A stretch of 64,000 nucleotides of DNA. It comes from an uncultured Opitutia bacterium (GTDB lineage Bacteria > Verrucomicrobiota > Verrucomicrobiia > Opitutales > Opitutaceae). Below are positions 53,858 to 63,492 of the stretch, piece after piece (the stretch's first letter is position 1; every line of letters starts with the position of its first letter). Both the position numbers and the translations under genes were made by a program. Under the pieces are notes generated by a model. That model was given only the letters and a program-made list of their open reading frames with translations. It did no database searches and had not been told where the DNA came from. The DNA lies in NCBI GenBank assembly GCA_903881475.1, contig CAIRTK010000017.1, positions 1 through 64,000 of the forward strand. Direction: 5' to 3'.

Positions 53858-55186
53858 CTATTTTTTGAGGATATCCAAGGCCACGGCGGTCATGGCGGTC
53901 ACGCCGGTCTTCAGGGTGGGTTCGGGCAATGGAGCGAACCTACTTGAATGCAGGGAAGGCAGGGGCAGGCCGGTACGCTGACTCTCCGCCACTTTTACGG
54001 GATCGACGGCGCCCAGACGGAAAAGACAGATCGGCACATGGTCGGTGGTACGGCCGAATTCGCTGAAATCCTCGCCGCCCATCTCGGCCGGGATGGTCTG
54101 CACGCGGTCCTCGCCGAACCAGGCAACGAGGGCGCCGCGGACGCGCCGCGTGAGCGTCGGGTCATTGTAGGTGGCATTGACGGTATCGTCCTCGACGACC
54201 GTGACGACAGGCTGCAACTCGTCGGGCAGGCCGGCGGCGATGGCTTCGCCCCGGCAGATGCGGCGGACGGCTTCCAGGGTGTGGGCGCGGACGGCGGCGG
54301 AGTAGGACCGGAGCGTGAGCTGGAGCTTCACTTCATCGGGAATGACGTTGGCCTTGGTGCCGCCATGAATGGATCCGACCGTGACGACGGCCGGGTCGAT
54401 CGGCCGGGTTTCCCGGCTCACGATGGTCTGGAGCGCCATCACGATGCGGGCGGCGAGCACGATCGGATCCTTGGTGGCCTGGGGATACGCCCCGTGGCCG
54501 CCGATGCCGCGCACGGTGATCTCGACGGTATCGACGTTTGCCATGGCGAACCCTTCGACGGTGCCAAGCGTGCCGGCGGGCAGCGAGGCGCTGTCATGGA
54601 GGGCGACCGCATAGTCGGGCTTGGGAAATTTCCGGTACAGGCCCGCGACCAGCATGGAGCGGGCGCCGATCCCTCGTTCCTCCGCGGGCTGGCCGATGAG
54701 CACCAGCGTGCCGGACCACTGGTCGCGCAGTGCGACCAGCAGGCGCGCGGTGCCGGTCAGGACCGTCATGTGCACGTCATGACCGCAGGCCTGCATCACG
54801 GGCACCTCGCGGCCGGAGAGATCCTTGACGCGAACCTGGCTCGCATACGGCAGGCCGGTCTCCTCGTGCACCGGGAGGGCGTCGAGATCGCTGCGGATGA
54901 GCAGCGTGGGGCCGGGCCCGTTCTTCAGGACGGCGACGACGCCGTAGCCGCCGAATTTCTCGGTGACCTCGAACCCGGCGGCCCGCAGCGCCGCCGCCAC
55001 CTTGGCGGAGGTTTTTTCCTCCATGAGCGAAAGCTCGGGGTGCAGGTGGAGGTCGGTATAAAACGCGAGCAGCGCGGGATAATCGGCGCTGACTTTCTGC
55101 GCGACGAGTTCGGACAACGGCGTGCCGGCGGCGCGGAGAAGGCCGGGGGAGAGGAGGAGGGAAGCGAGGAGAAGGCGGAGTTTCAT
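53858..55186 (-). CDS. M20-family amidohydrolase, secreted
   Basis: 442 residues with a signal peptide (MKLRLLLASLLLSPGLLRA). Metal ligands appear as Cys/His in QACGHDVHMT, Glu-Glu in GQPAEERGIG, His in VALHDSASLPAGTLG and the C-terminal EMGGEDFSEF. The dimerisation domain is between. The pattern is that of the IAA-amidohydrolase/hippurate hydrolase group (M20D). It would hydrolyse N-acyl amino acids in the periplasm. It starts 4 bases after the stop of the upstream cyclophilin gene, so the two form an operon. Confidence 0.92.
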   Translation of the reverse strand: MKLRLLLASLLLSPGLLRAAGTPLSELVAQKVSADYPALLAFYTDLHLHPELSLMEEKTSAKVAAALRAAGFEVTEKFGGYGVVAVLKNGPGPTLLIRSDLDALPVHEETGLPYASQVRVKDLSGREVPVMQACGHDVHMTVLTGTARLLVALRDQWSGTLVLIGQPAEERGIGARSMLVAGLYRKFPKPDYAVALHDSASLPAGTLGTVEGFAMANVDTVEITVRGIGGHGAYPQATKDPIVLAARIVMALQTIVSRETRPIDPAVVTVGSIHGGTKANVIPDEVKLQLTLRSYSAAVRAHTLEAVRRICRGEAIAAGLPDELQPVVTVVEDDTVNATYNDPTLTRRVRGALVAWFGEDRVQTIPAEMGGEDFSEFGRTTDHVPICLFRLGAVDPVKVAESQRTGLPLPSLHSSRFAPLPEPTLKTGVTAMTAVALDILKK

Positions 55187-55190
55187 GAAA

Positions 55191-56333
55191 TCAGGGATGG
55201 GGTTCGAATTTTAAGATCAGCGCGTCGAGCACGGCATTGACCTGGAAGTTGATCTTCTGGCCGGCGGTCAGGGTCTGGCCGGCGGGCATGGTTTTGGCGA
55301 AGTCAGCGGCCGCAACATCGGCGCGGGCCCGGGCGGCGGCGAGAAAATCCTGCTTCGCCTGGTGCAGCCCGCCGTTCTTCATCAGCTCGGGGAGCGAGCC
55401 GGCCCGGCCGGCGAACTGCGGGAGATAGTCATCGCCGATCCACAATCCCCATTGCCCGGTATCGGCAAAATAGACGGCGAGGGCGCTGGCCGGCGGCAGG
55501 CCGATTTTTTTCGCCATCATCCCCGCCAGGCTGCCCGGGCGCTGATTCGGGGTCTCGGGCACAAACCGGGCGCAGAGGCGCGCGTAGATCTTCCGGCCGG
55601 TGGCGCGCTCGAAGTTGGCAAGCTTGCGCTGGGCGATGAGGGCGCGGGGCGGATCCGAGGGCAGGAGCTTGTCCGGGTCGTCGAAGTTTGCGGCGGGGCC
55701 GGGGGCGGGCGCGGCGGCGAATTTTTTCGCACGGGCGGCGAGGGCGTCGAACGCGGCCTGGTCGGCGCGAAACGCGACCGCGGCGGCGCCCACGCGGCGG
55801 ATGCGCACCGCGGTCATCACGTCGTTCGGCCGGATCAGCGGCAGGATCTCGCGCCCGCGGACGACGCGCCCGAAAACGCTGTGGAGGTAATTGAGACGGT
55901 TGACCTCGCGCAGCGTGAAGAAGAACTGCGAGCCGTTGGTGTCGGGCCCGTCGTTGGCCATCGAGAGCACTCCGGCGTCATCGTGCCGGAGGCCGGGCAC
56001 GAACTCGTCGGCGAAGGCGTAGCCCGGGCCGCCTTCGCCGGTGCCGAGCGGGTCGCCGCCCTGCACCACGAAGTTGGGCACGACGCGGTGGAATTTCAGG
56101 CCGTCGAAGAAGGGCGTGCCCTTCTTCGGCCCGAGCGTGCCCTCCGCGAGGCCGGTGAAACTGGCGACGGTGAGCGGGGCCTGACGGTAAAGCAGCTCCG
56201 CGACCACGGTGCCGCGCGGTGTGGTGAACTCGGCGTAAAGGCCGTCGGGCAGGGCGGGCGCGGGGGACGTTTCGCCGGCGCGGAGCGCCGGGCCGATGGT
56301 GAGCAGGACAAGCAGCGCGCGCAGGAATCTCAT
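55191..56333 (-). CDS. Cyclophilin-type peptidyl-prolyl isomerase with C-terminal extension
   Basis: 380 residues, signal peptide at 1-19. Residues 30-185 are a cyclophilin domain: HRVVPNFVVQGGDP (Arg and Gln active-site positions), ADEFVPGLRHDDAGVLSMANDGPDTNGSQFFFTL and the closing VFGRVVRGREILPLI. About 190 further residues follow, with no motif I recognise (FERATGRKIYARLCARFVPETPNQRPGSL..., GLWIGDDYLPQFAGRAG). Single-domain cyclophilins are near 170-200 residues, so the extension is notable. Operon with the M20 gene, 4-base gap. Confidence 0.9.
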   Translation of the reverse strand: MRFLRALLVLLTIGPALRAGETSPAPALPDGLYAEFTTPRGTVVAELLYRQAPLTVASFTGLAEGTLGPKKGTPFFDGLKFHRVVPNFVVQGGDPLGTGEGGPGYAFADEFVPGLRHDDAGVLSMANDGPDTNGSQFFFTLREVNRLNYLHSVFGRVVRGREILPLIRPNDVMTAVRIRRVGAAAVAFRADQAAFDALAARAKKFAAAPAPGPAANFDDPDKLLPSDPPRALIAQRKLANFERATGRKIYARLCARFVPETPNQRPGSLAGMMAKKIGLPPASALAVYFADTGQWGLWIGDDYLPQFAGRAGSLPELMKNGGLHQAKQDFLAAARARADVAAADFAKTMPAGQTLTAGQKINFQVNAVLDALILKFEPHP

Positions 56334-56453: not shown

Positions 56454-57161
56454 ATGAAACGCCGCCGCATCGTTCCCTTCCTGATGGTTGCCCTGATCGC
56501 CACGGCCGCGCTGCGCGCCGTGGCGGGCGGCGGAAATTTCATCCCGGCGGGTGCCATCGAGGTGAAGACCGTCGTGCCGCCGCCGCCGGCTGCCGGCTCA
56601 GTGGCGGCCCTGGCCGACCTTGAGACGGTGCTGCAGGTGCAGGCGGCGCGGACGCCGGCGGACGTGGCGTGGGCCAAGCTCGTCGTGAAGGACAGCGCGT
56701 TCGACAATGCCAGCGTGCTGGGCGCCTGGTTCACGCGGGAAAACCTGCCGGTGACGGCGGAGTTCCTGAAGCAGGTGACGGAAGACACCCTCACGGTGAG
56801 CCGGAGCCTGAAGGGACTCTATGCCCGGCCGCGTCCGCCGCGCATGGACCCGACCGTGCACCCCTGCGTGGAGCTGCCGGACAGCGGCTCCTATCCCAGC
56901 GCGCATTCGATGCGGGCGTTTGTGTGGGCGGCGGTGCTGGGTGAAATCTTTCCCGACCACCAGGTGGAGCTCTACACCCGCGCCCACCGGGCCGCGTGGG
57001 GCCGCGTCATGGGCGGAGTGCACTTCCCGAGCGACCTTGTGGGCGGCCGCCTGCTGGCGCAGGCGATCGTGGCCGAGCTGCGGAAGAATCCGGCGTATCA
57101 CGCGGCCGTGGAAAAGTGCCGGGCCGAGGCTGCGCCGTTTCTCCTGAAAAAGGCGGCGTGA
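56454..57161 (+). CDS. Class A acid phosphatase (PAP2 family), secreted
   Basis: 235 residues with a signal peptide (ending near ALRAVAGG). The three PAP2 phosphatase motifs occur in order: KGLYARPRPPRM (Kx6RP), SGSYPSAHSMRAF (PSGH-type with catalytic His) and RAAWGRVMGGVHFPSDLVGG (SRx5Hx3D-type with Arg, His, Asp). This matches bacterial non-specific acid phosphatases that release phosphate from organic esters in the periplasm. Convergent with the LysM gene. Confidence 0.9.
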   Translation: MKRRRIVPFLMVALIATAALRAVAGGGNFIPAGAIEVKTVVPPPPAAGSVAALADLETVLQVQAARTPADVAWAKLVVKDSAFDNASVLGAWFTRENLPVTAEFLKQVTEDTLTVSRSLKGLYARPRPPRMDPTVHPCVELPDSGSYPSAHSMRAFVWAAVLGEIFPDHQVELYTRAHRAAWGRVMGGVHFPSDLVGGRLLAQAIVAELRKNPAYHAAVEKCRAEAAPFLLKKAA

Positions 57162-57193: not shown

Positions 57194-57847
57194 CTACGGG
57201 ATGCGCAGCTTGCTGCCGACCACGAGGCTCTTTTCGTCACGCAACACGTCGCGGTTGGCGGCGAGAATTTCCGACCAGCGGCTGGTCGTGCCATAATACT
57301 GGCGCGAAATCTTGGTGAGGGTGTCGCCTTCGGCGACGACATGCGTGCGCGGGGCCGGCGCGGCGGCCGGCAGCGGATCGGGCGCGGGCGCGACGGTCAC
57401 GACGCTGGGCTGCAGGGTTGAGGAGGAGGACAGGCCGGTGGAGGAAGGCCCGGTGGCGAGCCGGGTCTTGAGCGCGTTGTTCTCGAGGGAAAGCGCCGCC
57501 AGCTGATCCTGGGTCTGGCGCAGCTGCTCGTGCAGCGCGGCGGCCTGGTCGGCGAGGGGCAGGGCGTTCTTGGCCACCGCGAGCTGGGCCTCGAGGGCGG
57601 ATTTTTCCGTCAGGAGTTTTTCCTGCGCGGCCTTGAGCTGGTCATTCTCAGCCTCCAGCAAGCTGTAGCTGCGGAGCACGACGGCGAGCTTGGCCTCGGC
57701 GGTGTCCTGCGGCTCCACGGCCGGGGCGGTGGTGGCGGCCGGCGGCGTGGCGGGCGCATCGGGCACGGGCGCCTGGCCATGAGCCCGGGAGAGGAAAGCC
57801 AGCGAGGTCACGAGGACGAAGGCAACGCGGAGCGAGGAAGAGCTCAT
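57194..57847 (-). CDS. Coiled-coil LysM protein (C-half paralogue)
   Basis: 217 residues. Signal peptide (ending around SRAHGQ), Pro/Ala linker, a coiled coil at about 55-130 (VVLRSYSLLEAENDQLKAAQEKLLTEKSALEAQLA...REQLRQTQ-like) and a C-terminal LysM domain (RTHVVAEGDTLTKISRQYYG... to the end) that binds peptidoglycan. The protein is closely similar over its last 160 residues to the C-terminus of the adjacent 1594-residue protein. Last gene of the three-gene LysM/Sel1 cluster. Confidence 0.85.
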   Translation of the reverse strand: MSSSSLRVAFVLVTSLAFLSRAHGQAPVPDAPATPPAATTAPAVEPQDTAEAKLAVVLRSYSLLEAENDQLKAAQEKLLTEKSALEAQLAVAKNALPLADQAAALHEQLRQTQDQLAALSLENNALKTRLATGPSSTGLSSSSTLQPSVVTVAPAPDPLPAAAPAPRTHVVAEGDTLTKISRQYYGTTSRWSEILAANRDVLRDEKSLVVGSKLRIP

Positions 57848-57915
57848 GGGAGGAAGGAATAACGGAATCGGGTGCGAGGCAATCTTTCACGCCGGCGCGG
57901 GCCGGGTGGAAGCCA

Positions 57916-60900
57916 TCAGGGAATCTTGAGAATCCGGCCGACCACGAGGCTGCGCTCGTCGCGCAGGACGTCGCGGTTGGCCGCGAGAATTTCCGGCCAG
58001 CGGTTGGCCGTCCCGTAGTAGAGCCGCGAAATCTTGCCGAGAGTGTCGCCGGGGGCGACGACATGCGTTCGCGGAGCGGGCGCCGGGGGCGGCGTCACCG
58101 GCGCCGCAGTGGCGGCGGCGGCGAGGGCGGTGCCCGGCCGGGTGGGAGTGTTGAGCGTGGCGGGCGGGCCCGCGGCGGTGCGCACCGGCGCGGGGGCAGA
58201 CGCCGGCGCGGTGACGGTGGGCGCCGCGGCGGAAACCACGCGGCCGACCGTCTGGGAAACGGTGGCGAGGGTTGCCTTCATCCGCGCATTTTCCTCCGCC
58301 AGGCTCCGGTTGGAGGCCTGGGCATCGGCGGCCTTGCGCTCGGCGTCGGCGGCGCGGCTGCGCAGGGCCTCCAGCTCCGTGGGCGGCGGGACGAGGGTCA
58401 GGCGTGTCTTCAGCTGGGAATTTTCCTGGGCGAGCGCGGCGGCCTGCGCCTGGGTCTGGCGGAGTTGCTCGCGCACCGCATCAATCTGGGCGGCGGTGGC
58501 AGCCGCGGTATCCGCCTGGGCCTTGAGCGCATCGGCGGCGGCGCGGGCGGCGGCGAGCTGGGTTTCGAGCGCGGACTTGTCGGCGGCGAGTTTTTCACCG
58601 CCGGACTTCAGGGTGTCGTTTTCGGCCTGCAGCGCGCTGTAGCTGCGGAGGGCCATCGCGAGCTTGGCTTCCGTTTCGGCCGCGGCCTTGGGATCCGCCG
58701 CCGGGGCGGACTTCGCCTCGGCGAGCTGCTGCTGCAGCGCGGTGCGTTCGGCTTCGAGGGACTGCAGCTGGGTGTGAAGCGCGGCGAGCTGGTCGGCCGC
58801 GCCCTTGCCGGCTTCCACGGCGGCGGCCGCGGAGGCGGAGAGCGCAGTGCGGCTGGTCTCGCTGGCGGCCAGCTGGTTCTTGAGTTCCGTCAGCTGGGTT
58901 TGCAGCGCCCCGACTTGGGCGAGCTTGACCTCGGTCTCGGCCGCAGCCTTGGGGTCGGCCGCCGGGGCGGCCTTGGCCTGGGTGAGTTGCTGCTGCAGCG
59001 CGGTGCGTTCGGCTTCGAGCGACTGCACTTGGGTGTGCAGCGCGGCGAGTTCGGCCCGGCCTTTGTCGCTGGCTTGCCCCGCTGCGGCCAGCCGCTCGCC
59101 GAGCTGCTGCTTGTCGGTGCGCAGGGCCGCGAGATCCTCCTGCAACCGGGCCAGCTGGGCCGCGGCCTGGGCGTCGGGTGGCGCGCTGGCGGTGCGGTGA
59201 TCCGCCGCAAGCCTGGCGACTTCGGAGGCGGCCACTGCGGCCTGGGCTTTGGCGCTTTCCGTTTCCTTGTGCGCGGCGACGAGGTCGGCGGAGAGTTTAT
59301 TGACCTGGTCGGCGGCCTGGGCTTGCGCGGTGGCCGCGGCGAGATGGTCGGCCTCCAGCGCCTGCACCCGGGATTTCAGGGAAGCCGCCTGGGCGGCGGA
59401 TTCCTTGGCGGCAAACTCCGCCTGGCGCAGCGCCTCACCGGCGGCGGCGTGGCTGGCATCGCTGGCGGCCTTGATGGCCGCGGTCGCCTGGGCAAGTTGC
59501 GCGGTGAGGGTGTCCTTCTGTGCGCTCACCGTGGCTAGCCGAGATTGCAGTTCGCCGAACTGGGTCGTGGCCTTTGCGGCGTCGGCGCGGGCCTGGACCT
59601 CGGCGGCCGTGGGCCCGACGGGCGCCTTGGATTTTTCGACCAGGGCGGCCAGTTCGGCGCGGGCCCGCGCGGCTTCCTGGTGCGCGGTGTCCAAGGCGGC
59701 GGTCTGGGCGGCCGTGGCGGTTGCGAACTCGGAGAGTTTTTCGCGCGCGGCCACGAGGTCACGTTGGGCGGCGGCGAGATCGTCAGTGAGCTTGGCTGCC
59801 GCGGCGGGGTTGGGCTGGAGCCTGGCATTTGCGGCCGTGAGTTCGTCGAGGCGCGTGCGGGCCTGCGTCAGGGCGGCCTCGGTCGCGGCCCGGGCCCGCC
59901 GTTCCTTTTCCAAACCGGCGTTTGCGGCGGCCAGCTGGTCGCCCTGGGTGTGTGCGGCATCAAGTGCGGCCTGGGCTGCCTTCAGCTGGGCCCGCAGCGG
60001 TTCCAGCTGATTGGCGATCTGGCTTCGAACGGATTCGCTTGCGGCGAGTTTTTGCCCGGAATCGACGAGACCCTGCCGGGCGGCGGCGAGATCCCGGTCA
60101 AGCGCGGCGACCTTGGCCTCGGCGGCGCCGGCCGCCTGGGTGGCGGCGGCCAGCTGGGTTGCGAGGGCGGTTTTTTCGGCGGTGAGCTGGGTGCGGGCCG
60201 ACTCGGCGGACTGGACTTGGGCGCGAAGCGACGCGATCTGGTCTGTCTCAGCCTTGACCGCCGCGGTGGCCGCGGAATTTTTTTCCGCCAGGTCGGCGCG
60301 CGCGGCCTCGGTTGTGGCCAACTGCGTTTTCAGCGCCGCCAGCTGCGGCTGCAGGTCGCCGAGCCGGGCCGTGGCCTTGGCCTGGGTTTCGGCCGTGGCG
60401 TGCGCTTCCGCGGAGGCCGCGGCAAGTTTTTGGGTGAGGGCGGCAATTTCCTGCACCTGGGATTCAGCGGTGGCGGCCGCCTTGGCCCGGGCGGCCTCGG
60501 TGCTGGCCTGCTGCGCGGTGAGCCTGGCCGCCTCGGCCGCTCCGGCGGCTTGGACGCGCTCGGTTTCCTTGCGGGCGGCCTCGAGCTCAGCCGAAAGTTT
60601 CTTGAGGCGGTCCGCGGCCGTGGCCTGTTCGGCAGCCGCAGCGACGCGGGCGGCCTCGAGCGGCTGGACCCGGGCCTTGAGCGCAGCGGCCTGGGCGGCG
60701 GATTCCTTGGCGGCAAATTCAGCGCGCCGGAGGGCTTCATTGGAAGCGGCGCGACTCGAGTCGCCGGCGGCTTTGGCGGCGGCAGTCGCCTGGGCGAGCT
60801 GCCCGGCGAGCGCGTCCTTCTCCGCGGTCAGCCTGATCACAGCGCTGTCGGCGGCGGTCTTTTCAGACGAGAGCGCGGTCCGTGCCGCCTCAGCCGAGGC

Positions 60901-62700
60901 CAGCTGGGTCTTGAGGGAGGCGACCTGCGCCTGGGATTCGCCGAGCTGGGCGGCGGCCTTGGCGGCATCCGCCTGGGCCTGCGCATCGGTGCGGGCGACG
61001 GCGGTGGCCGCGCTGAGTTTCCGGGTGAGGCTCGCGATTTCCTGCGCCTGGGATTCGGCGGTGGCGGCCGCCTTGGCGCGGGCGGCCTCGGTGGCGTCCC
61101 GTTCGGCCGCGAGCCGGGATTTTTCCGCGGTCACGGCGGCGAGGGCGGTCGCGATCCGCGTCTTCTCGGCGGCGTTGGAAGCGGCGAGGGCCTTGGCCCC
61201 GTCGGCATCCTTGAGAGCGGCCGCAAGGTCGGCGGAGAGTTTTTTGACGCGATCGGCGGACTGCGCCTGTGCGGTGGAGATGGCAGCGCCCGTCGCCTCG
61301 AGGGATTGGACCTTCGTCTGGAGGGCCGTCACCTGGGCGGCGGACTCCCGGGCGGCGGCGCTCGCGTGCTGCGCGGCTTCATTCGCCGCGGCGAGGGAAC
61401 TCTCGCTGGCGGTGAGTTTCTGCCGCGACTCGGCAAGGGCCTGCCGGGCCGCCGTGAGTTCGGCGTTGAGTGCGTTGCCTTGGGTGGCGTTCGCAGCCTT
61501 GGCCGAGGCCCGGGCCTCGGCGAGCTGGGCGGTGAGGCTGGTGTTTTCCGAGGTGAGTTTGCCGAGGGCGTCGGCGGCGGACGATTTTTCGGCGGCGAGG
61601 GCGGCCCGCGTCGCTTCGGCGGAAGCCAGCTGGATCTTGAGCGCGGCGACTTGTGACTGCACCTCGCCGAGCTGCGCAGCGGCCTTGGCGGCATCCGCCT
61701 GGGCCTGCGCGTCGGTGCGGACGATGGCGCTGGCCGCGGTGAGTTTCTGGGTGAGGCTGGCGATTTCCCTGCTCTGGGACTCGACGATGGCGACGGCCTT
61801 GGCGCGGGCGGCCTCGGTGGCCTCATGCTCGGTCACAAGGCGGGCCTTCTCCGCAGTCAGGGTCGCGAGGGCGGCCTGGGCGGCGGCCTTTTCCTTGGTG
61901 CTGGCGTCGGCGACAGTCTGGGCTTTTTCAATTTCCTTCCGGGCGGCATCGAGGCTCGCGGCGAGCTTGGCGGCCTCGGCGGTGGCGGCGGTTTTGGCCG
62001 CGGTTTCATCCCGCATTTTCCCCAGCGCGGCTGCCTGTTCGTTGAGGCGCGCCTTGCTTTGCGCGAGGTCGGCCTGGGCGGCCGTCAGGTCCGTTTTCAG
62101 CTGGGCATTCTCCTTCCAGGTGAGCGCGAGCTCGCCGCTGAGCTGGTGCCGGTCATTGCGCAAGGCCACCATTTCATCCTGGCCGGAACCGGCGGGCTGG
62201 TCGGGTGCGCCCGGGCCGGCCGCCTCCGGACTCCGGACGGAAGGCAAGACCGGCGTGGGCGCCGGCGCGGCGGAGGAAGCGGGGGTGGGGCCGGCGTCAG
62301 CCGGGGTGTTGAGGCTGAAAATCCGGATGCCGGGCTTGGGTGCGGCGGTGCGGTTGACGATGACCGCCTTGTTCTTGGCCGCGATCATCGCGCGATAGTT
62401 TTCCAGCCGGTCGCGGCCGGCGGCGAGCTGGGCATCGGTCATGTTGCCCAGCACCGTGTTGAGGGCCTTGCCGGTGGACCCGTTTTCGGACGCGAGGGTG
62501 AGCCATGCAAAGGCCTCGGGGATGTCGACCGGCAGCAGTTGTCCCTGGGTATAAGCGAGGCCGAGATTATACTGGGCAATGGCATTCCCTCTTTCAGCCT
62601 TGGCCCGGAGGGAGGCGATTTCGGCGGGCTCAGCGGCGACCAGACGACTGAAGGCCACTGTCAGCAACAACAACAGGGCGGTGCGGGCGTGCAGGAACAT
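57916..62700 (-). CDS. Giant Sel1-coiled-coil-LysM envelope protein
   Basis: 1594 residues. Signal peptide (1-22), Sel1-like repeats (about 25-110: AERGNAIAQYNLGLAYTQGQLLP), a Pro-rich linker (130-175), an extremely Ala/Gln/Glu-rich coiled coil (about 180-1450), another Pro/Ala linker and a C-terminal LysM (RTHVVAPGDTLGKISRLYYG). The coiled coil contains long internal repeats: TEAARAKA-type units begin near residues 295, 537 and 734. Probably periplasmic, anchored to the wall by LysM, with a rod tens of nanometres long. The N-part resembles the gene upstream and the C-part the gene downstream. Function unknown. Confidence 0.85.
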   Translation of the reverse strand: MFLHARTALLLLLTVAFSRLVAAEPAEIASLRAKAERGNAIAQYNLGLAYTQGQLLPVDIPEAFAWLTLASENGSTGKALNTVLGNMTDAQLAAGRDRLENYRAMIAAKNKAVIVNRTAAPKPGIRIFSLNTPADAGPTPASSAAPAPTPVLPSVRSPEAAGPGAPDQPAGSGQDEMVALRNDRHQLSGELALTWKENAQLKTDLTAAQADLAQSKARLNEQAAALGKMRDETAAKTAATAEAAKLAASLDAARKEIEKAQTVADASTKEKAAAQAALATLTAEKARLVTEHEATEAARAKAVAIVESQSREIASLTQKLTAASAIVRTDAQAQADAAKAAAQLGEVQSQVAALKIQLASAEATRAALAAEKSSAADALGKLTSENTSLTAQLAEARASAKAANATQGNALNAELTAARQALAESRQKLTASESSLAAANEAAQHASAAARESAAQVTALQTKVQSLEATGAAISTAQAQSADRVKKLSADLAAALKDADGAKALAASNAAEKTRIATALAAVTAEKSRLAAERDATEAARAKAAATAESQAQEIASLTRKLSAATAVARTDAQAQADAAKAAAQLGESQAQVASLKTQLASAEAARTALSSEKTAADSAVIRLTAEKDALAGQLAQATAAAKAAGDSSRAASNEALRRAEFAAKESAAQAAALKARVQPLEAARVAAAAEQATAADRLKKLSAELEAARKETERVQAAGAAEAARLTAQQASTEAARAKAAATAESQVQEIAALTQKLAAASAEAHATAETQAKATARLGDLQPQLAALKTQLATTEAARADLAEKNSAATAAVKAETDQIASLRAQVQSAESARTQLTAEKTALATQLAAATQAAGAAEAKVAALDRDLAAARQGLVDSGQKLAASESVRSQIANQLEPLRAQLKAAQAALDAAHTQGDQLAAANAGLEKERRARAATEAALTQARTRLDELTAANARLQPNPAAAAKLTDDLAAAQRDLVAAREKLSEFATATAAQTAALDTAHQEAARARAELAALVEKSKAPVGPTAAEVQARADAAKATTQFGELQSRLATVSAQKDTLTAQLAQATAAIKAASDASHAAAGEALRQAEFAAKESAAQAASLKSRVQALEADHLAAATAQAQAADQVNKLSADLVAAHKETESAKAQAAVAASEVARLAADHRTASAPPDAQAAAQLARLQEDLAALRTDKQQLGERLAAAGQASDKGRAELAALHTQVQSLEAERTALQQQLTQAKAAPAADPKAAAETEVKLAQVGALQTQLTELKNQLAASETSRTALSASAAAAVEAGKGAADQLAALHTQLQSLEAERTALQQQLAEAKSAPAADPKAAAETEAKLAMALRSYSALQAENDTLKSGGEKLAADKSALETQLAAARAAADALKAQADTAAATAAQIDAVREQLRQTQAQAAALAQENSQLKTRLTLVPPPTELEALRSRAADAERKAADAQASNRSLAEENARMKATLATVSQTVGRVVSAAAPTVTAPASAPAPVRTAAGPPATLNTPTRPGTALAAAATAAPVTPPPAPAPRTHVVAPGDTLGKISRLYYGTANRWPEILAANRDVLRDERSLVVGRILKIP

Positions 62701-62793
62701 GACGCTCCATCCCTAAGTGCTTTTCCCGCCTACTCAATACGCGAATCCGGGTGGACCGACGTTTACAACTGTTTGCCGCGCCGGCGGCCGACG

Positions 62794-63492
62794 TCACTGC
62801 GGGCGGGGAACCGGCTCAGCCAAGGGGGTTTTGCCGGCGGCTTCCGCAGGGACCGTTGCGGCGCCGGAGGGAAACCTTGCGGTGAGCTCGGCCTGAAGCT
62901 TCGCGATGAGGGCGGCCTGTTCTTTCAGCCGGGCGCCGGCCTCGCCGAGCGCGGATTTGAGCCGGGCGTTTTCCTTGCGAAGTTGGGCCGGATCGTCGGA
63001 ACCCGGACCGGTTACTTCTGGGGCGCGGGTCACGGCGGTGGCGGGTGCAGGGTTGAGGGTCGTGGATTTATCCGCCGCGGGCCGGGCGGTGAGGCTGAAG
63101 CCGCGCGTAGAGGGCTTGTACGCGGCGGGGTTGTCGAGGGTCGCCGTGTTTCTGGCGGCGAGGATGGCGCGGTATTCCGAAAGGCGCCGCCGGCCCTCGG
63201 CGAGCTGCGGATCGGAGAGCGTGCCCAGGATCTCGTCGAGGGCCTTGCCGGTGGAGCCGTTTTCGGAGGCGAGCGAAAGCCAGACGAAGGCCTCGGGCGG
63301 GTCGGCGGGCACCAGTTGGCCCTGGGCATAGGCGAGGCCGAGGTTGTATTGCGCGAGGGTGTTGCCCCTTTCGGCCTTGGCGCGGAGCGAAACGATCTCC
63401 GCCGGCTCGTCGGCAAAAACGCTGTTGGCAGCGAAGGCCAGCAGCAGGAGCAGCGCAGGGCGGCTGGAGGAAAACAGCGGGAGGGAAAACAT
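62794..63492 (-). CDS. Sel1-repeat coiled-coil protein (N-half paralogue)
   Basis: 232 residues. Signal peptide (ending near SVFADE), Sel1-like region at about 28-110 (RAKAERGNTLAQYNLGLAYAQGQLVPADPPEAFVWLSLASENGSTGKALDEILG), an Ala/Pro linker and a short coiled coil (LRKENARLKSALGEAGARLKEQAALIAKLQAEL). It is about 60% identical by eye to the N-terminus of the next gene but stops before the long rod and has no LysM. Transcribed towards the giant gene after a 93-base gap, so a three-gene operon is likely. The 309-base region upstream (63493-63801) carries no gene I can support and must hold divergent promoters. Confidence 0.85.
   Translation of the reverse strand: MFSLPLFSSSRPALLLLLAFAANSVFADEPAEIVSLRAKAERGNTLAQYNLGLAYAQGQLVPADPPEAFVWLSLASENGSTGKALDEILGTLSDPQLAEGRRRLSEYRAILAARNTATLDNPAAYKPSTRGFSLTARPAADKSTTLNPAPATAVTRAPEVTGPGSDDPAQLRKENARLKSALGEAGARLKEQAALIAKLQAELTARFPSGAATVPAEAAGKTPLAEPVPRPQ

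Follow-up and report, generated by a model that had tools for sequence, protein, structure and literature searches.

How did a giant gene come to stand between two short genes that resemble its opposite ends, and what might the encoded protein do? In a freshwater bacterium of the family Opitutaceae, three adjoining open reading frames raise this question. They lie on the minus strand of the stretch of DNA analysed here (the window, 64,000 nucleotides) and are read in the order free head, giant, free tail; their coordinates and order were those reported in the earlier note. The three genes, the parts of the giant and the neighbouring genes are as follows.

62794..63492, minus strand: free head, 232 aa, with signal peptide, Sel1 domain, Pro-rich linker and short coil
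57916..62700, minus strand: giant, 1594 aa, with signal peptide, Sel1 domain, linker, coiled-coil rod, linker and LysM domain
62347..62634, minus strand: head of the giant, a Sel1 five-helix domain, residues 23-118 (PF08238; AlphaFold)
62185..62346, minus strand: disordered Pro-rich linker, residues 119-172 (AlphaFold pLDDT about 50)
58234..62184, minus strand: coiled-coil rod, residues 173-1489 (heptads, internal repeats, proline breaks; AlphaFold helix at both ends)
61493..61792, minus strand: rod repeat copy, 75% identical to 60767..61066
60767..61066, minus strand: rod repeat copy, partner of 61493..61792
58919..59049, minus strand: rod repeat copy, 88% identical to 58658..58788
58606..58668, minus strand: conserved coil motif LA.ALRSY.LLQ.END.LK near the C-terminal end of the rod (family alignment)
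58075..58233, minus strand: disordered linker with the family motif P-[ST]-RP (alignment; AlphaFold)
57919..58074, minus strand: LysM domain forming the very C-terminus of the giant (PF01476, E 6e-6; AlphaFold fold)
57194..57847, minus strand: free tail, 217 aa, with signal peptide, coil with the RSY motif, linker and LysM domain
56454..57161, plus strand: PAP2-type phosphatase (PF01569), a neighbour in most of the genus (synteny)
55191..56333, minus strand: cyclophilin-type PPIase (PF00160), a neighbour across the genus and in some other genera
53858..55186, minus strand: M20 peptidase (PF01546), a neighbour across the genus

The order head, giant, tail, followed by the PAP2, PPIase and M20 genes, is found in nearly all genomes of the genus that were seen, the exceptions being one genome without a free head and one in which the contig ends. 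In many relatives a glycerol kinase gene (named from its own sequence, without a family search) lies directly upstream of the giant, with a divergent gene for an RND-type pump. None of the glycerol kinase, the pump, the PPIase and the M20 peptidase indicated a pathway, no partner of the giant was found, and several clusters in the survey of neighbouring genes resembled spurious opposite-strand reading frames. We discarded the neighbours as a clue to function and kept the glycerol kinase and the pump as position markers only. A search of the locus found nothing resembling a promoter. Terminators were not clearly in excess, and nearly all matches that resembled one are on the strand opposite to the genes.

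Domains, export and predicted structure

Matches to the Sel1 repeat scored 31.6 and 35.0 bits (Pfam cut-off 30.7), and in the giant the PF01476 match covers residues 1546-1594. AlphaFold models built from family alignments gave, at the N-terminal end, a five-helix Sel1 head (helices within residues 26-118, pLDDT mostly above 90), a disordered linker and a long helix, and at the C-terminal end two helices, a disordered linker and a LysM fold (strand-helix-helix-strand). By sequence profile and fold, over short aligned stretches, the Sel1 head resembles solved Sel1 proteins, among them Legionella LpnE and AlgK; Foldseek gave no match for it at E <= 0.001.

Between the two domains, the rod has a hydrophobic period of 3.49, with a windowed power of 5.2 against at most 1.7 in shuffled sequences, and Leu and Ala chiefly occupy core positions a and d. 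Its best 60-residue window of self-similarity scored 220, whereas rods that had been shuffled or phase-shuffled reached no more than 84, and the main repeat copies are 65-88% identical in DNA. Because prolines and about 15 register breaks interrupt the heptads, the rod is segmented and not one continuous coil. Thus, of the 1250-residue coiled coil with long repeats proposed in the earlier note, the heptads and the repeats are real and the continuity is not. The giant also matched the NCBIfam model for the SMC chromosome segregation protein at 75 bits, far below the cut-off of 567; we rejected this identity as coiled-coil similarity only.

All three proteins have a signal peptide, and no further hydrophobic segment was found (the best 19-residue hydropathy past residue 30 is 1.05). 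They contain no cysteine and so no lipid anchor. With only a signal peptide, they would most simply be soluble periplasmic proteins. The envelope location, the LysM wall anchor and the Opitutaceae origin proposed earlier are supported, the location by signal peptides in proteins with no other membrane segment.

The flanking genes are copies of the two ends of the giant

The free head is 67% identical to the N-terminus of the giant over 112 residues, and hhalign aligned the two over 183 columns. The free tail is 73-79% identical to the C-terminus over the LysM end, and its coil matches residues 1329-1438 of the giant at 53% over 110 residues. DNA identity of the end copies to the giant is 73% (300 nucleotides) and 82% (157 nucleotides), and Pfam detected Sel1 in the head and the giant and LysM in the giant and the tail. 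The protein and DNA matches thus bear out the earlier claim that the flanking genes copy the two ends of the giant. Each copy keeps more than the terminal domain: free heads retain the Sel1 domain, the linker and a short coil, and in the alignment free tails retain the RSY coil beside LysM, with L23, S29 and E36 of the motif invariant over 25 alignment rows.

Across 80 relatives, mostly metagenome-assembled genomes titled Opitutae, Opitutaceae or Verrucomicrobia, the common form of the locus is a single full-length gene encoding Sel1, coil and LysM; the loci that were typed include 72 full-length proteins. One or two coil-LysM genes, each encoding about 250-535 residues, often come after this gene, and free tails are present in several genera. 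A match to the tail in a frame of at least 600 residues was found in at least 20 of 30 well-covered genomes of the family, while about one third of the sampled family genomes had no giant-sized match. Among the matches listed, frames in other families of the order are about 430 residues or less, and giant-sized frames with the tail of the giant occur, within the order, in its own family only. Many genomes also carry a second paralogue, in which several Sel1 repeats accompany a rod.

In several genera (L092, L098, L101, L102, L104, L123) two coil-LysM genes of unlike age follow the giant, and the second of them belongs to a distinct, older LysM clade. The genome of the window has a second Sel1-coil-LysM giant (G000:C3, L071:6873-11522, minus strand) with one in-frame TAA after codon 625, beyond which the frame is open through to LysM; in the sister genome G008 the second giant has a single in-frame TAG at another position. 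In G027 (L097:8917-13833) a single in-frame TAA after codon 477 divides the first-locus giant, and the frame after this stop is intact for more than 1100 codons.

Heads and tails were acquired separately

The free heads of the genus fall into a single clade (100/96) of the Sel1 tree. That clade sits inside a group to which giants of the genus also belong, which makes the head copy young; giants from five members of the genus branch elsewhere, at uncertain positions. In peat (fen) relatives a further set of free heads, located downstream of the giant, has an independent origin. Free heads arose at least twice, in the genus of the window and, on the other side of the giant, in the peat (fen) relatives. 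Among the peat genomes, L110 and L136 have independent free-head genes near the giant on its downstream side, and L136 and L107 have free-head copies with an RSY-type coil motif near their C-terminal end.

The tail tree unites the free tails of the genus in one clade (97/93), places a different set of free tails with giants of their own (96/93) and contains further old clades; free tails arose more than once. The deep branches are poorly supported, and with the backbone lacking resolution the number of tail duplications is a lower bound. The flanking genes were acquired separately from one another and at different times, and the simplest history is that an ancestral full-length gene shed tail copies and later head copies.

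The earlier note had offered two origins for the locus, and we rejected both. Duplication and fusion of a two-gene pair is opposed by the wide distribution of the single full-length gene and by the nesting of the genus heads, as one clade, with giants of that genus. That the flanks are remnants of one broken second copy is opposed by the separate and repeated addition of tails and heads and by selection: dN/dS is 0.08-0.39 for heads, tails and giants, indicating purifying selection, and the flanking genes are therefore not decaying fragments. Unrelated origins of the flanking genes in relatives, which the note had named as evidence against its proposal, were not seen, the flanks being homologous to the ends of the giant.

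The rod varies in length between conserved ends

The spacer between Sel1 and LysM has a median of 965 residues in the 72 full-length proteins. Leaving G008 aside, it ranges from 354 to 1929 residues across the family and from 604 to 1624 within one genus, and the heptad period stays within 3.4-3.6 in 70 of 71 family rods. The rod changes in length very fast: among three species about 90% identical, rods differ by clean in-frame blocks of 101, 209, 39 and 10 residues, two of which begin at one shared point. At the start of the rod dN/dS is 0.18-0.24, indicating purifying selection.

The closest relative, G008, has an in-frame deletion of 4281 nucleotides that joins Sel1 straight to LysM (L040:11204-11707, 167 aa, spacer 0), and its head and LysM ends are still very similar (dN/dS about 0.05). 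Its free head (L040:12000-12503) has a 1-base frameshift in a run of C, downstream of which the frame is otherwise preserved. With no rod, a frameshifted head and a broken second giant, this genome indicates that long rods are dispensable at least there; the deletion, the frameshift and the nonsense codon of the second giant may each be a genuine loss or an error of assembly.

Comparison with known systems

Long coiled coils are usually regarded as fixed in length. The Caulobacter polarity protein PodJ likewise has a coiled coil, Sel1-type repeats and a region that binds peptidoglycan, but it spans the inner membrane with its coiled coils in the cytoplasm, and its order and topology differ from those of the giant. 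FimV/HubP is also a long multidomain protein, in which coiled coils occur together with a wall-binding LysM domain and, at the opposite end, a TPR-type repeat domain (PMC8789113). However, HubP has a transmembrane helix, with its acidic and TPR parts in the cytosol, whereas the giant has LysM at its C-terminus, Sel1 at its N-terminus and a signal peptide only; a transmembrane helix with an acidic cytosolic part is absent. SlpA/OmpM and Omp-alpha share with the giant a wall-binding domain and a long envelope coiled coil (PMC9388160). They bind the wall by SLH, reach the outer membrane by a barrel or a transmembrane helix and have a rod that fits the gap, while the giant has LysM, no outer-membrane anchor and a rod whose length varies several-fold. 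Of the features of such spacers, neither conserved coil length (PMC5082667) nor an outer-membrane anchor was found, Pfam detecting no barrel family. Agrobacterium GPR and Sinorhizobium RgsE resemble the giant as mostly helical scaffolds of about 2100 residues tied to growth and cell shape (PMC8262873, PMC7327166), but GPR is membrane-anchored and cytoplasmic, with apolipoprotein-like repeats and without Sel1 or LysM; in the giant, Pfam gave no PF01442 match, and the single N-terminal hydrophobic segment is the signal peptide. Vibrio cholerae CrvA, which is periplasmic and determines cell curvature (PMC7695739), is a possible functional analogue.

The open-access literature searched gave no account of this family. 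Each of its domains is known; for their combination, for the recurrent end-only copies and for the natural range of rod lengths, no description turned up in those papers.

Possible roles of the giant

The earlier note had suggested a wall-anchored rod that could span the periplasm and serve in envelope spacing or cell shape. As a spacer, the rod would stand radially and set the distance from wall to outer membrane, like Omp-alpha or SlpA. The plan of the protein, with a wall-binding domain at one end, a coiled coil and a second domain at the other, agrees with this, and such spacers are already known (PMC9388160, PMC5082667). They hold a constant length or fit the gap, however, whereas here the length varies widely within one genus and changes by blocks of 101, 209 and 39 residues between close species. 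About 1260 helical residues, if extended, would reach some 190 nm, against 28 nm for the SlpA coil and 50 nm for the Omp-alpha rod, and the giant has neither a barrel nor a lipobox cysteine to anchor it in the outer membrane. Because the rod length varies and the extended rod exceeds any usual periplasm several-fold, we disfavour the spacer and think it quite unlikely. The free change in length would instead suit an Ala-rich filler kept mostly by drift, in a near-neutral, structurally redundant protein of which only the ends matter, and the direct joining of well-conserved ends in G008 favours this. But the start of the rod is under purifying selection, the heptad is kept in nearly all rods, and the shortest spacer apart from the G008 deletion still has 354 residues; moreover, that deletion could be recent, and the low dN/dS of its ends may then reflect selection from before it occurred. 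We consider a drifting filler unlikely.

The giant could also polymerise along the sacculus into filaments, a wall-attached periplasmic skeleton that gives the cell its shape, comparable to CrvA of V. cholerae or to the growth pole ring of Agrobacterium. The wall anchor and the very long heptad coil, with its segmented repeats, would fit, free ends could cap filaments, and length may vary freely where units overlap. Any likeness to CrvA and the growth pole ring would be one of function, however, and one species has lost the rod; we find this reading doubtful. Alternatively, the protein might be a surface fibre that leaves the cell or crosses the outer membrane and serves, tied to the wall, as a long stalk for adhesion or matrix. 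Surface stalks generally show such length and repeat-driven length change, and LysM anchors occur on a few fibrillar adhesin-like proteins (PMC8286594). Yet a Sec signal is all that was seen, with neither a translocation domain nor a C-terminal sorting signal, and the Sel1 head is a protein-adaptor fold and not an adhesin; a surface fibre is very unlikely.

We propose, with roughly even confidence for and against, that the giant is a lineage-specific periplasmic scaffold held on peptidoglycan by LysM, in which the rod gives reach, Sel1 serves as adaptor and the end copies co-assemble or compete. The giant would be exported by Sec to the periplasm as a soluble protein, and its C-terminal LysM domain would bind peptidoglycan, while the N-terminal Sel1 domain would recruit a protein partner; both binding roles are inferred from what is known of the domains. 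The Ala-rich segmented coiled coil may let the protein extend along the sacculus or slightly away from it. Both of the free ends, head and tail, would be functional partial duplicates of the ends of the giant. The coil retained beside each domain, with the RSY coil in free tails and Sel1, linker and short coil in free heads, suggests that the free ends pair with the giant; they would probably co-assemble with it or compete at its ends, and the ratio of rods to caps may then set the degree of scaffold linkage. The orientation along the wall, the oligomeric state and the capping by free ends are conjectural parts of this scaffold model.

Regardless of the role of the giant, the locus is a clear case of a multidomain protein that repeatedly sheds end-only paralogues next to itself. 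The family also provides a natural range of rod lengths, from zero to about 1900 residues, between ends that are otherwise conserved. With this range, which takes in species about 90% identical in DNA, the role that rod length has in a wall-anchored protein can be tested directly. A bolder version, to which we assign a low probability, is that Opitutaceae have a unique two-ended periplasmic skeleton of hypervariable length, in which rods would link wall sites to partners and the repeatedly evolved heads and tails would be caps that tune the network. If this skeleton exists, rod length would be an evolvable trait of these bacteria, altered by block duplication and deletion.
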